Below, piece by piece: positions 20,479-31,773 of a stretch of DNA of 64,000 bases (the first letter of the stretch is position 1; each line of letters begins with the position of its first letter). The translations under genes were made by a program, and so were the position numbers. The stretch is from Chitinophagaceae bacterium (lineage in GTDB: Bacteria > Bacteroidota > Bacteroidia > Chitinophagales > Chitinophagaceae): NCBI GenBank assembly GCA_004322425.1, contig SCVJ01000004.1:27690-91689 (forward strand). Reading direction: 5' to 3'. The notes under the pieces were generated by a model. The model was given only the letters and a program-made list of their open reading frames with translations. It ran no database searches and had not been told where the DNA came from.

Positions 20479-21240
20479 ATGTCAAACAGTATAATTTCAG
20501 TAAATAATCTAGTAAAAAATTACGGCAATTTTCAAGCTGTAAAAGGAATAAATTTTGAAGTTTTTGAAGGAGAGATTTTTGGATTGCTTGGGCCAAATGG
20601 AGCTGGAAAATCAACTACACTTGAAATAATTGAAACACTGAGAACTAAAACGAGTGGAGAAATTTTTGTTAATGGGTATAATATTGACGGGCAGCAGAAT
20701 GAAATTAAAAAAATTATTGGAGTACAATTACAAAGCAGCGGATTTTATCCTTTACTAAACTTAGTTGAACTGATTCAACTCTTTTGTGGATTATACAATC
20801 GAAATGTTGATGCATTGGAATTATTAGAGTTGGTGAATTTAAAAGATAAAGCAACAGCACAAGTAAAACAATTAAGCGGTGGGCAGAAGCAGCGTTTTTC
20901 AATTGCAACAACATTGATCAACAATCCGAAAATTATTTTTTTGGATGAGCCAACTACGGGACTCGATCCCCAAGCACGAAGAAGTCTATGGGGGTTGATT
21001 AAAAATATTCGCGCCAAAGGAACTTCTGTCATTCTTACTACGCATTATATGGATGAAGCCGAAGCACTTTGTGATCGAGTAGCCATTATGGATTTTGGTA
21101 AAATAGTTGCAATGGATTCACCAGATAAATTAATAGACAAGTTGGTTGCTACCGGATTTGAACGTCCAAAGGAAGTAAAAAAAGCAAATTTGGAAGATGT
21201 ATTTATTAATTTAACTGGACATTCATTACGAGAAGATTAA
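20479..21240 (+). CDS. ABC transporter ATP-binding protein (ABC-2/DrrA type)
   Basis: A 253-residue nucleotide-binding subunit with Walker A GPNGAGKST, signature LSGGQKQR, Walker B IIFLDEPTTGLD and switch histidine TTHYMDEAEALCDRV. The ending DVFINLTGHSLRED is the short tail typical of DrrA/ABC-2 export ATPases. No membrane permease gene is adjacent in this window, which is unusual since ABC-2 ATPases are normally paired. Substrate unknown. It lies in the fbp-led operon. Confidence 0.88.
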   Translation: MSNSIISVNNLVKNYGNFQAVKGINFEVFEGEIFGLLGPNGAGKSTTLEIIETLRTKTSGEIFVNGYNIDGQQNEIKKIIGVQLQSSGFYPLLNLVELIQLFCGLYNRNVDALELLELVNLKDKATAQVKQLSGGQKQRFSIATTLINNPKIIFLDEPTTGLDPQARRSLWGLIKNIRAKGTSVILTTHYMDEAEALCDRVAIMDFGKIVAMDSPDKLIDKLVATGFERPKEVKKANLEDVFINLTGHSLRED

Positions 21241-26838: not shown

Positions 26839-27882
26839 TTACGAATTACTGGCAATTAGTAAATTACACAATTTGAATAGTATTCTTGCACTCACATTGG
26901 CATCCCAGTCAGTTTCACTAATTCCTGTTTCGCATAAATCAAAACCAATTATTTTCTTTCCACTTTTTAAAATAGTTTTAAACAAATAATATACTTGTTC
27001 AATTTCTAACCCACTTTGTACAGGTGTACCAGTGTTGGGGCAAAGTTTGGGATCTAATCCATCAACATCAAAACTTATGAAAATATGATTGGGAAGTGAA
27101 AAAACAATTGAATCAACCAATTGCTTCCATGTTTCCCCTTCGTACATTCTTTCTTTAATGTCACGATCAAAAAAACTAATAATGCGAGAACTATTATCGG
27201 AAGCAAATTTCAATTCTCCTTCGCTAAAATCGCGAATACCTACTTGAACCAATTTTACAATTTGTGGAATTTCATTTAGAGCATTATACATGATACTGGC
27301 GTGAGAATAGATAAATCCTTCGTAGGCTACACGCATATCAAAATGAGCATCTATTTGAAGAATTCCAAAATTTCCATGTTTTTCTGCAATTGCTTTAAAA
27401 AATCCAAGTGGAGTGCTATGATCACCTCCTAATAGCCCAACAAGCTTTCCATTGTCTAATAATCTTTTCGTTTGCTCGTAAACCCAATTATTAAGAAAAC
27501 CACTGCCTTCGTTTACTTCTTTCAAGGTTTTGATCATAAACTGATTATCCTCAACTTTTTCGCCTTTAGAAATATAATCGATATACAATTCAGCTTCTCT
27601 TCTTAGATAATCACTTTTCATCTGAATTTTTTTATCGATTGGTAGCATATAAAATCCTTGCTTCCAACCATCTGGAGAGTTGAAATCGAATAGATCTACT
27701 TGCATACTGGCAGTAAAAATATGAGATGATGCTCTAGCTGTACCTGCGCCATAACTAACAGTTACTTCCCAGGGTACAGGGAGTATTATAAGTCTTGCGG
27801 TTTCCTCGGTAAAAGGCAATCCAAAAATATTGTAATTGGGGTTCCCGGCACTGTCGGGATTAAAGTTTGAAAGATCAGTCAT
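26839..27882 (-). CDS. Agmatinase/arginase-family (ureohydrolase) metalloenzyme
   Basis: A 347-residue ureohydrolase. The binuclear metal ligands are complete: GGDHS, DAHFDMR and SFDVDGLDP, with a conserved Glu in GFDLCETG. The family hydrolyses guanidino groups to urea. The N-terminal FGLPFTEETARLIILPVPWEVTVSYGAGTARASSHI is typical of the 'agmatinase family' of Bacteroidota and cyanobacteria, whose substrates differ (arginine, agmatine, or guanidine in recently described nickel enzymes). rocD in this window would suit an arginase but is 27 kb away. Substrate left open. Confidence 0.82.
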   Translation of the reverse strand: MTDLSNFNPDSAGNPNYNIFGLPFTEETARLIILPVPWEVTVSYGAGTARASSHIFTASMQVDLFDFNSPDGWKQGFYMLPIDKKIQMKSDYLRREAELYIDYISKGEKVEDNQFMIKTLKEVNEGSGFLNNWVYEQTKRLLDNGKLVGLLGGDHSTPLGFFKAIAEKHGNFGILQIDAHFDMRVAYEGFIYSHASIMYNALNEIPQIVKLVQVGIRDFSEGELKFASDNSSRIISFFDRDIKERMYEGETWKQLVDSIVFSLPNHIFISFDVDGLDPKLCPNTGTPVQSGLEIEQVYYLFKTILKSGKKIIGFDLCETGISETDWDANVSARILFKLCNLLIASNS

Positions 27883-28049: not shown

Positions 28050-28475
28050 ATGAAAAAGAGTCATGTTTTCTTTCTTGTTTTAATAATTGCTGCAATTGCA
28101 GTTTTAATTAGCCTTTTGCCTTACGGCGAAAGTACTGCGATGAGTTCTTACGAAACAGTTTACACTGCCAAAGAAAAGGAAGGAAAATTTGTACATCTTG
28201 TTGCTAAATTAGATACAAGACAACCCGTAGAATATGATGCTTTAAAGAATCCCAATTACTTAAGTTTTACAGCTGTCGATTCATTGGGTGCTACCGTGAA
28301 AATTGTTTATCACAATGCTAAACCCGATAACTTGGAACAAAGCGAAAGATTAGTAATGAAAGGTAGAATGAAGGGAGAGCAGTTTGAATGCAAAGAAATT
28401 TTAATGAAATGTCCTTCCAAATACACAGATGATCCGAATCGTATGGAACAAAGTATTATAAACAATACTAACTAA
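28050..28475 (+). CDS. ccmE: Cytochrome c maturation haem chaperone CcmE, CxxxY type
   Basis: A 141-residue periplasmic haem chaperone with an N-terminal membrane anchor (HVFFLVLIIAAIAVLISLLP) and an OB-fold domain. CcmE binds haem covalently and hands it to CcmF for attachment to apocytochromes. In E. coli the haem is held by the His of 'LAKHDENY'. Here the aligned segment reads LMKCPSKY: the His is replaced by Cys (C121) with Tyr four residues on (Y125). This CxxxY form is known from Ccm systems of some sulphate reducers and archaea. It is 6 bases upstream of ccmF. Confidence 0.88.
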   Translation: MKKSHVFFLVLIIAAIAVLISLLPYGESTAMSSYETVYTAKEKEGKFVHLVAKLDTRQPVEYDALKNPNYLSFTAVDSLGATVKIVYHNAKPDNLEQSERLVMKGRMKGEQFECKEILMKCPSKYTDDPNRMEQSIINNTN

Positions 28476-28481
28476 ATAGTC

Positions 28482-31025
28482 ATGGAATATATCGGCGAAC
28501 ACTTGATGCCCGGAAAAATGGGACATCTCTTGATAATTATTTCGTTTGTAACATCGCTCTTTGCAGCGGGTGCTTATTTACTTTCTTTTCGATCAGGAGA
28601 AAATTTAGCAAAGCAACTTTCTTGGAAAAAATTAGCTAGAATTTTTTTCTTCATTGATGTGGTTGCCTTTTTGGCAATTTTTATAATTCTTTATTCACTA
28701 ATTGCAAATCATCGGTACGAATATTTTTATGTGTATAAAAATTCGGGAAATGATTTAGAACCAAAATATATATTCAGTTCACTTTGGAGTGCTTCTGAAG
28801 GAAGTTTTATTCTTTGGGCTGTTTGGCATGCTATTCTTGGAATGATTTTGATTTTCACATCCAAAAAATGGGAAGCACCGGTTATGATGGTTTTATCATT
28901 GATGCAAGCTTGTTTGTCAACAATGTTATTGGGAGTTTATGTGGCGGGAGTAAAAATTGGCAGCAATCCATTTGTTTTATTTAGAGAACAAATGCCGGAT
29001 TTACCCATTTTTACTTATGCAGATTATGTTTCCAAAATAGCAGACGGTAATGGGTTAAATCAGTTGTTGCAGAATTACTGGATGGTTATTCATCCACCAG
29101 TTTTGTTTTTAGGATTTGCAAGTGTCATTGTTCCATTTGCTTTTGCAATTGCTGGGTTAATGACTAAAAAATTGGGTGAATGGACAAAACCCGCACTTCC
29201 ATGGACACTTTTTTCTGCCGCAATTTTAGGAGTTGGTGTAATGATGGGTGCAGCCTGGGCTTATGAATCGTTAAGTTTTGGAGGATATTGGGCTTGGGAT
29301 CCTGTTGAAAATGCATCGCTTGTTCCGTGGATGGTTCTTGTTGCCGGAATTCATACTGTAGTAATTTACAAAAACACAGGTCGATCGTTAAACTCAAGTT
29401 TCTTGTTAATCTTACTTTCATTTATTCTCATTATTTATTCAACTTTTCTCACAAGAAGTGGAATATTGGGCGAAACTTCGGTGCATTCTTTTGCAGATTT
29501 AGGAATGAATGCCCAGCTTTATTTGTTTCTGTATGTATTTTTCTGGCTTCCTTTATTTGTTTTAGTTAATGGAATAAAAAAGAAACTTATTGTTTTTGGA
29601 ATTTCAATAGCTTTTTTAATTCTTGCAAACTTTGTACACCCATTATTTACAGTGATAGCACCCTTGCTTGCAATAGTTGGTTTTATGTGGCAGTTTCAAA
29701 TGGTTGTTCCTTCGCACAAAAAAGAGGAAGAAGGTTCATCACGAGAGTTTTGGATGTTTATTGGATCAATTGTGCTTTTCTTTTCATCATTATTTATTAT
29801 TGGTCAAACTTCATTGCCCGTTTACAATAAAATATTTGGTACAAAATATGCACCGGCTGAGGATGTTGAATTTTCATACAATCGGATTCAGATTTTTATT
29901 GCTATTATTATTGGATCGCTTACTGCAGTTGGCCAATATTTCAAATATCAAAAAACGGTTAAAAAATATTTTTTAAAAAAGATATGGGTTCCCGCTTTGA
30001 TTAGTCTTGTTTTTTCAACTCTAATAATTGTATGGGGCGATATTAACTATAACAAATATGGGATTGGATTTTTGGCTTCCATTTGGATAGCAGTGGCCTG
30101 TAGTATTTTTGCAGTTGTTGCCAACTTTTCCTATATCTGGATTGGCATTAAGGGTTCACTAAAACTTTCCGGACCATCAGTAGCTCATTTTGGATTTGGA
30201 TTAATGTTATTTGGAATTTTAATTTCATCGTCAAAAAAAGAAATACTTTCTTACAACACTAGTGGCATTTCCATAAACTTTGGTCCCGATAGTAAAGAAA
30301 ATACAGGAGAAAACTTAACTCTTGTAAAAGGCGTGAGAATGGATATGGGAAAATATTGGGTAACTTATCATAGTGATTCAATACATCCCAAAAAATCGCA
30401 ATGGTATTATCATATCAAATTTGAAAGTAAAGACGGGAAAGAAAATTTTACAATTACTCCAGATGCTTTTGTAAATTATCAAGGCAATGAAGGATTAATG
30501 GCCAACCCCGATGCAAAGCATTACTGGAATAGAGATGTTTTTGGCTACATAACTGCCATGGCAGATCCTGAAAGAAATAGTGATACTGCCTCGTTCGAAA
30601 AAAATATTGTAAAAATTGGGGATTCAATTTTTTATTCAAGAGGTTATATCATTTTGGAAGATATAGTAACCAATGATAATTTGCCTGCCGAAATTTTTGG
30701 CCCCAATGGAAAACTTTTTGAAGCCAAATTAAAAATTGTGGCTACTTCGGGTTCTCATTATACGTCTGTACCAAGATTGGCAATTGCAAAAGAAATTGCA
30801 TTAGCAGTTCCAGATACAATTATGTCAGAGAGTTTAGTATTTCAATTAAATAAAGTGGAAGGAACAACAGCAGAAATTGGAGTAAAAGAGTCTAATTCTG
30901 TCCTTCAATATATCACACTCAAAGTTTATAAATTTCCTTTCATAAATGTCCTATGGTTGGGAACAATTTTTATGGCTGTAGGATTTTGTATTAGCATGAT
31001 TCGTCGCGTTCGATTGAACAAATAA
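28482..31025 (+). CDS. ccmF: Cytochrome c haem lyase CcmF/CcsA-type
   Basis: An 847-residue polytopic membrane protein with the haem-handling WWD-type segment GGYWAWDPVENASLVPWM and conserved flanking elements WMVIHPPVLFLGF and LTRSGILGETSVHSF. The C-terminal approximately 250 residues form a periplasmic domain before a final helix (VLWLGTIFMAVGFCISMIRR). It is longer than E. coli CcmF, as in Bacteroidota homologues. It works with CcmE to attach haem to CXXCH motifs. CcmA, B, C, G and H are not in the window. Confidence 0.92.
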   Translation: MEYIGEHLMPGKMGHLLIIISFVTSLFAAGAYLLSFRSGENLAKQLSWKKLARIFFFIDVVAFLAIFIILYSLIANHRYEYFYVYKNSGNDLEPKYIFSSLWSASEGSFILWAVWHAILGMILIFTSKKWEAPVMMVLSLMQACLSTMLLGVYVAGVKIGSNPFVLFREQMPDLPIFTYADYVSKIADGNGLNQLLQNYWMVIHPPVLFLGFASVIVPFAFAIAGLMTKKLGEWTKPALPWTLFSAAILGVGVMMGAAWAYESLSFGGYWAWDPVENASLVPWMVLVAGIHTVVIYKNTGRSLNSSFLLILLSFILIIYSTFLTRSGILGETSVHSFADLGMNAQLYLFLYVFFWLPLFVLVNGIKKKLIVFGISIAFLILANFVHPLFTVIAPLLAIVGFMWQFQMVVPSHKKEEEGSSREFWMFIGSIVLFFSSLFIIGQTSLPVYNKIFGTKYAPAEDVEFSYNRIQIFIAIIIGSLTAVGQYFKYQKTVKKYFLKKIWVPALISLVFSTLIIVWGDINYNKYGIGFLASIWIAVACSIFAVVANFSYIWIGIKGSLKLSGPSVAHFGFGLMLFGILISSSKKEILSYNTSGISINFGPDSKENTGENLTLVKGVRMDMGKYWVTYHSDSIHPKKSQWYYHIKFESKDGKENFTITPDAFVNYQGNEGLMANPDAKHYWNRDVFGYITAMADPERNSDTASFEKNIVKIGDSIFYSRGYIILEDIVTNDNLPAEIFGPNGKLFEAKLKIVATSGSHYTSVPRLAIAKEIALAVPDTIMSESLVFQLNKVEGTTAEIGVKESNSVLQYITLKVYKFPFINVLWLGTIFMAVGFCISMIRRVRLNK

Positions 31026-31104: not shown

Positions 31105-31773
31105 ATGAAAAAGTGGTTGGCAAAACTTGGGTTGAGTTTTACAATAGCCACACTATTTTTTTTTCATACAAGCTTCAGTCAAGAAAATAATCCATTACCA
31201 ACTCAGCATGAAAAATGGGGAAAATCGGATACAATAATTACGCAAGCAATTTTTTATCAAGAAGAATGGATGCCATTTAAAGAGTTAGAAAAAGCTTGGG
31301 TTTCCAATTTGTCTGATAAGCAATTGGCAAAATTCATTCAAGAGTGGACAAGGTTGCGCAATGCTGTTTATGTAACGTATCCTTATGCAAAAACTGCTGG
31401 TATATTAATGAATGATATCAATTTCAACTTAGCCAACGTCAGCAATAAAAAAGAAAGGAAAAAATATATTAAAATGCGAGAAGAAGAATTGAGAGATAAA
31501 TTTGGCGAGCCATTGACCAATCTTTCCGTATTTCAAGGAAAAATATTGATGAAATTAATTAACCGTCAAACGGGAAATAATTGCTACGAAATTGTAAAAG
31601 AATATCGTGGCGGAGTTGCAGCTCGCCTTTATCAAACGGTTGCTTTTTTCTTTGGCTCTAGCTTGAAACAGGATTGGGATTTATCTGAAAATGTTGATAA
31701 ACAAATTGAAGGTTTTGTGAAAGAGATTGATGGCCTTTGGTACAATAATACAATTCTTGAAAAAGGAGATTAA
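31105..31773 (+). CDS. DUF4294 exported protein, unknown function
   Basis: A 222-residue protein with a signal peptide (LGLSFTIATLFFFHTSFSQ) and a DUF4294 core: RLRNAVYVTYPYAKTAGILMNDINFNL, KKERKKYIKMREEELRDKFGEPLTNLSVFQGKILMKLINRQTGNNCYEI. The family is common in Bacteroidota and has no known function. It lies 79 bases after ccmF and 49 bases before bshB1 on the same strand. Confidence 0.8.
   Translation: MKKWLAKLGLSFTIATLFFFHTSFSQENNPLPTQHEKWGKSDTIITQAIFYQEEWMPFKELEKAWVSNLSDKQLAKFIQEWTRLRNAVYVTYPYAKTAGILMNDINFNLANVSNKKERKKYIKMREEELRDKFGEPLTNLSVFQGKILMKLINRQTGNNCYEIVKEYRGGVAARLYQTVAFFFGSSLKQDWDLSENVDKQIEGFVKEIDGLWYNNTILEKGD

Follow-up and report, generated by a model that had tools for sequence, protein, structure and literature searches.

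Cysteine-type CcmE, in which a cysteine takes the place of the haem-binding histidine of the chaperone, has been described from archaea and Desulfovibrio under the name System I* (PMC3601427). The variant and the exact CPSKY motif appeared in print between 2006 and 2011, and CPSKY is the commonest motif of the bacterial proteins (25 of 36 genomes, mostly of delta-proteobacteria, plus Chloroflexi and Firmicutes), as given in the FEBS J review of 2011 (PMC3601427). A sequence-only reading of the locus studied here had placed such proteins in some sulphate reducers and archaea, a range that is too narrow in view of the Chloroflexi and Firmicutes already included. The Desulfovibrio ccm operon with its cysteine-type CcmE is functional in E. 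coli without CcmG and CcmH, and loss of CcmH in System I* is frequent, not obligatory, with about one third of the bacterial cases retaining it (PMC3601427). In Methanosarcina acetivorans CcmE, C120 is required for haem attachment (PMC9084895). The excerpts found on the variant do not name Bacteroidota among the cysteine-type organisms. PMC3601427 was the sole match in a literature search for the motif; no paper stating that the whole of the Bacteroidota is of the cysteine type was found in a search of mainly open-access literature, and the papers found held no report of haem attachment to any Bacteroidota CcmE.

The window, i.e. the whole analysed stretch of 64,000 nucleotides from a Chitinophagaceae bacterium, contains an open reading frame (Table 1) that was confirmed by sequence comparison as a genuine CcmE haem chaperone with cysteine replacing the haem-binding histidine. 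The Pfam CcmE model (PF03100) matched it with 46.4 bits (cut-off 24.6), while the NCBIfam equivalog models scored far under their cut-offs, a reflection of sequence divergence. The haem-site segment reads EILMKCPSKYTDD, including C121 and Y125, and the C-terminal end of the 141-residue protein reads ...KEILMKCPSKYTDDPNRMEQSIINNTN. Cys121-Pro-Ser-Lys-Tyr125 occupies the place of E. coli His130-Asp-Glu-Asn-Tyr134, so that the histidine of the HXXXY motif of classical System I is absent from the site and the CXXXY that marks System I* stands in its column. When the PDB was searched with a profile of 45 Bacteroidota CcmE sequences, the histidine of E. coli CcmE (LAKHDENY, PDB 8ce8/1sr3) and the cysteine of D. 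vulgaris CcmE (MTKCP, PDB 2kct) both fell in the column of Cys121; PDB 1j6q was matched as well. C121, P122, S123 and Y125 were invariant in the 45-sequence alignment, which argues that the motif is not due to chance. The sequence-only reading had identified the protein as CcmE with Cys121 at the haem site and Tyr125 kept; the Pfam score and the modelled OB-fold bear out the first point, and reading frame, coordinates and motif proved exact for the second. The alignment with E. coli and Desulfovibrio CcmE that it proposed as a check put histidine and cysteine in register, with no conserved histidine at the window's haem site. Scanned for promoters, the ccmEF region yielded no more matches than shuffled sequences did.

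Table 1. Features of the ccmEF locus in the window and of related loci in other Bacteroidota
Feature	Position	Strand	Description
arginase-family protein	26839..27882	-	oriented divergently to ccmE; neighbour conserved among Chitinophagaceae
ccmE	28050..28475	+	ATG at 28050, stop ending 28475; 141 aa
ccmE regions			residues 3-22, N-terminal membrane helix; about 44-119, OB-fold barrel; then a flexible tail carrying C121-P-S-K-Y125
C121 P S K Y125 codons	28410..28424	+	haem-attachment motif; position from alignment and ORF coordinates
ccmF	28482..31025	+	847 aa, cytochrome c synthetase; enlarged C-terminal periplasmic region
DUF4294 protein	31105..31773	+	3' of ccmF in many Chitinophagaceae; conserved neighbour
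tail-less CcmE-like paralogue	L247:1501-1878	+	
tail-less CcmE-like paralogue	L250:1498-1869	-	
tail-less CcmE-like paralogue	L243:5629-6009	-	
tail-less CcmE-like paralogue	L244:5112-5528	-	further loci in other genomes

The AlphaFold model of the protein (mean pLDDT 87) shows the CcmE architecture of N-terminal membrane helix, OB-fold barrel and flexible tail, with the last barrel strand ending at residue 119 and the loose tail beginning at Lys120-Cys121. The top fold matches of the model were CcmE structures (8ce8_E, 1j6q and 1lm0), and D. vulgaris CcmE (2kct) was found at rank 13 (E 0.05). 'Pizza' beta-propeller designs, which topped the single-sequence search of the PDB, were rejected since no segment passed alone and the motif was left uncovered; they disappeared when the profile was used. 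Nup160 (9hcj), matched by both profile and fold, was put down to a shared OB-like segment.

The ccmE stop codon is separated from the ccmF start by 6 nt. CcmF retains the WWD motif (FGGYWAWDPVENASLVPW) and all four haem histidines, H204, H291, H335 and H569, corresponding to H173, H261, H303 and H491 of E. coli. Most of its surplus length comes from an expanded segment that links the TM-His2 helix to the final membrane helix. Because CcmF proteins of 17 other Bacteroidota span 743-958 aa, 847 aa is a normal length for the phylum; the long CcmF directly after ccmE that had been pointed out earlier is thus present, but its length is usual. The order arginase - ccmE - ccmF - DUF4294, complete or partial, is common to many Chitinophagaceae genomes, and no known link to cytochrome maturation was found for either the DUF4294 gene or the arginase-family gene. 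In other families ccmC, ccmD, ccmE and ccmF are clustered, in one case together with an ATPase gene and ccmB.

Further partner genes were found elsewhere in the genome. Genes for CcmB, CcmC and CcmD_alt (65 aa, PF20077, 84 bits) lie in a row on another contig (C301), apart from ccmEF, so that CcmB, CcmC, CcmD_alt and CcmF are all represented, and CcmA by ABC ATPase candidates only. These candidates scored alike, none of them above the TIGR01189 cut-off in this genome; the best-sized is C43:9472-9981. The window's own ABC ATPase (20479-21240) headed the TIGR01189 list and was rejected as CcmA, being a generic ATPase of 253 aa without a ccm neighbour. The ATPase adjoining ccmB in another Bacteroidota locus (L050) matched another ATPase of the window's genome equally well. 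Among the ccm parts suggested for a genome-wide search, ccmB and ccmC were thus recovered and ccmA as candidates, whereas CcmH (PF03918) gave no match in this genome and none of its thioredoxin-like proteins came up to the DsbE/CcmG cut-off. The Cytochrom_C_asm domain is confined to CcmC and CcmF, and a third such protein was not found in the genome; hence there is no CcsA and no System II. Across 396 Bacteroidota genomes PF03918 yielded 11 matches, four of them above the cut-off. The match inspected in one of these 11 genomes (L035:1213-2004, minus strand, family f17) was rejected as a plain CcmH; it is a zinc-ribbon protein in which two short cysteine repeats (CGCGSCN..., CPCGQCN...) are of a CcmH-like kind, and represents the closest approach to CcmH met in the Bacteroidota sampled. 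At a further locus (L244:6043-7131, minus strand; genome G128), a CcmC of 362 aa has its usual part preceded by an N-terminal extension that resembles a small beta domain.

Potential clients were also present. A haem-copper oxidase subunit I gene was found at a separate locus, with a putative subunit II gene and an alternative complex III cluster alongside. Its putative ActA contains six CXXCH motifs and its putative ActE the sequence NCGICHG (subunit II, ActA and ActE were named by reading the sequences). Given these oxidase and c-type cytochrome genes, the bacterium is very likely an aerobe requiring c-type cytochromes. The proposal that a Bacteroidota aerobe uses the variant chemistry is in keeping with the oxidase, the cytochromes and the cysteine site; the trait is not peculiar to this bacterium.

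With high confidence, we regard CcmE as the haem chaperone of an ordinary cysteine-type Ccm (System I*), which is probably the only c-type maturation route here. Gene identity, cysteine at the site, single copy, most partner genes, clients and phylum-wide conservation (see below) were all seen directly, and CcmH was not detected. CcmC, CcmD_alt and CcmAB would load haem onto CcmE, where Cys121 would most likely be joined to a vinyl group of the haem by a thioether bond, and Tyr125 would ligate the haem iron. CcmF, which has a WWD motif and a haem b of its own, would receive the haem from CcmE and attach it to the CXXCH motifs of apocytochromes (e.g. ActA and ActE) without CcmH. That haem is bound covalently, by what chemistry, and in which direction it is passed on are extrapolated here from Desulfovibrio and Methanosarcina. 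Even among cysteine-type proteins the covalent step is under dispute, since in vitro the binding of ferric haem by D. vulgaris CcmE was non-covalent, via C127 (PMC3884852). Haem may accordingly be held by thiolate-iron coordination only, with no thioether, and passed to CcmF as a reversible ligand, as would also suit the remark of the 2011 review (PMC3601427) that a thioether is expected to be hard to break. This alternative is unlikely, if worth keeping in mind: covalent haem binding in E. coli has been demonstrated for D. desulfuricans CcmE (PMC3601427), and M. acetivorans CcmE gives a haem-stained gel band that depends on C120 (PMC9084895).

The proposed System I* assignment also draws on copy number. 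No second CcmE, of the His type or any other, was found in the genome, whose assembly is estimated to be 100% complete; the cysteine-type protein is its single CcmE, and the genome is, as in System I*, without a His-type CcmE. It had been stated beforehand that a second, His-type gene would speak against the assignment, and the genome search gave one CcmE. The notion that the window's copy is degenerate and a true His-type CcmE is encoded elsewhere found no supporting evidence; it is opposed by the intact reading frame, the strictly conserved motif, the adjoining ccmF and the same type of site in every relative read, and by the single-copy result it is refuted, barring a gene missing from the assembly, leaving it with a negligible probability.

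The distribution of the cysteine site was then assessed across the phylum. PF03100 matched in 253 of 396 sampled Bacteroidota genomes, and a Bacteroidota-specific profile added at least two further CcmE proteins; 18 other PF03100-negative Bacteroidia genomes yielded no CcmE with this profile either. Two closely related Chitinophagaceae genomes (G254 and G392) have a divergent CcmE below the Pfam PF03100 cut-off that was recovered by the Bacteroidota profile, and annotation by Pfam only would miss the chaperone there. In 137 CcmE loci of other Bacteroidota genomes, picked to cover the strongest and weakest scorers and many families, the haem site read CPSKY in 136 cases, CPSRY in one and contained histidine in none; E. 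coli CcmE, included as a control, showed KHDENYT in the same alignment columns. In one genome (G273; L153:495-942, minus strand), CcmE is spread over two frames, owing to a frameshift or an assembly error, with the CPSKY end intact. A scan of named genomes for L[TVM]KCPSKY returned at least 557 confirmed relatives, a number that is uninformative on frequency as the scan was seeded with the motif. Among the best 80 of these, all carry Bacteroidota labels but for a single MAG under a Sphingomonadales label and a single uncultured bacterium. CPSKY-type CcmE is thus the rule among the Bacteroidota sampled, and the window's copy is ordinary. The sequence-only reading had considered the cysteine site noteworthy in this organism, a view at odds with CPS[KR]Y in all 137 other Bacteroidota proteins and with the earlier publication of the motif. 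Recent horizontal acquisition of ccmEF from an archaeon or a sulphate reducer, for which the several recorded moves of cysteine-type Ccm genes between archaea and bacteria (PMC9084895) could be adduced, is hardly credible, given that CcmE and its gene order are shared by many Chitinophagaceae, that the motif is common to the whole Bacteroidota sample, and that the closest sequences among the matches listed come from Chitinophagaceae (MAGs with 70% and 53% identity, Flavihumibacter with 64-54%), identity declining from 70 to 53% with relatedness.

An additional CcmE-like protein, about 116-126 aa long and lacking the tail and any haem-binding Cys/His motif, was observed in 16 sampled genomes from four other Bacteroidota families (f23, f25, f34 and f49; Table 1); none was found in the window's genome. 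Its gene lies nearly always immediately 3' of a CPSKY-type ccmE and is followed by ccmF where the sequence extends that far, the exceptions being G192 (about 0.65 kb away), G280 (an extra gene before ccmF) and G168 (on a separate contig). Profile comparison with CcmE gave a probability of 98% over 111 columns, ending one residue before the haem cysteine, and histidines are conserved in GHVHGG...FHATQ. An earlier description of this paralogue was not found in the literature search. It is possible that it acts as an extra haem relay or a substitute for CcmH. The broader scheme, in which all Bacteroidota would rely on a cysteine-type Ccm without CcmH, CcmF would replace CcmH by means of its enlarged C-terminal periplasmic domain and, in some families, the tail-less OB protein (GHVHGG...FHATQ) would relay haem from CcmE to CcmF, is speculative and, in our estimate, unlikely.

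By itself the window's ccmE is a plain instance of a published variant, and the phylum survey is the more useful result. It indicates that cysteine-type CcmE is the norm in a large, largely aerobic phylum and no mere peculiarity of archaea and sulphate reducers; the textbook histidine chemistry may therefore not be general in bacteria. The survey further brings out aerobes without CcmH, kin to the cultivated Flavihumibacter and Chitinophaga, in which the thioether-breaking step could be studied.

Compared with System I CcmE of E. coli (H130; 8ce8, 1sr3), the window's protein shares family, fold, tyrosine and position beside ccmF, but it has cysteine where E. coli has histidine, and CcmH was undetected in its genome. 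M. acetivorans (C120) has CXXXY and no CcmH, as in the window's genome, whereas its CcmF is split in two genes and CcmD is absent; the window's genome has one CcmF of 847 aa and a CcmD_alt gene. System I* CcmE of Desulfovibrio (D. desulfuricans; D. vulgaris, 2kct) likewise has cysteine at the same place, an OB-fold and no use of CcmH, but a single ccm operon including ccmD stands against at least two ccm loci and a CcmD of the CcmD_alt type. From CcmE of other Bacteroidota (Thermoflavifilum, Flavihumibacter and Chitinophaga) the window's protein shows no noteworthy difference, sharing with them the same KCPSKY and, where examined, the ccmE-ccmF pair and the long CcmF.
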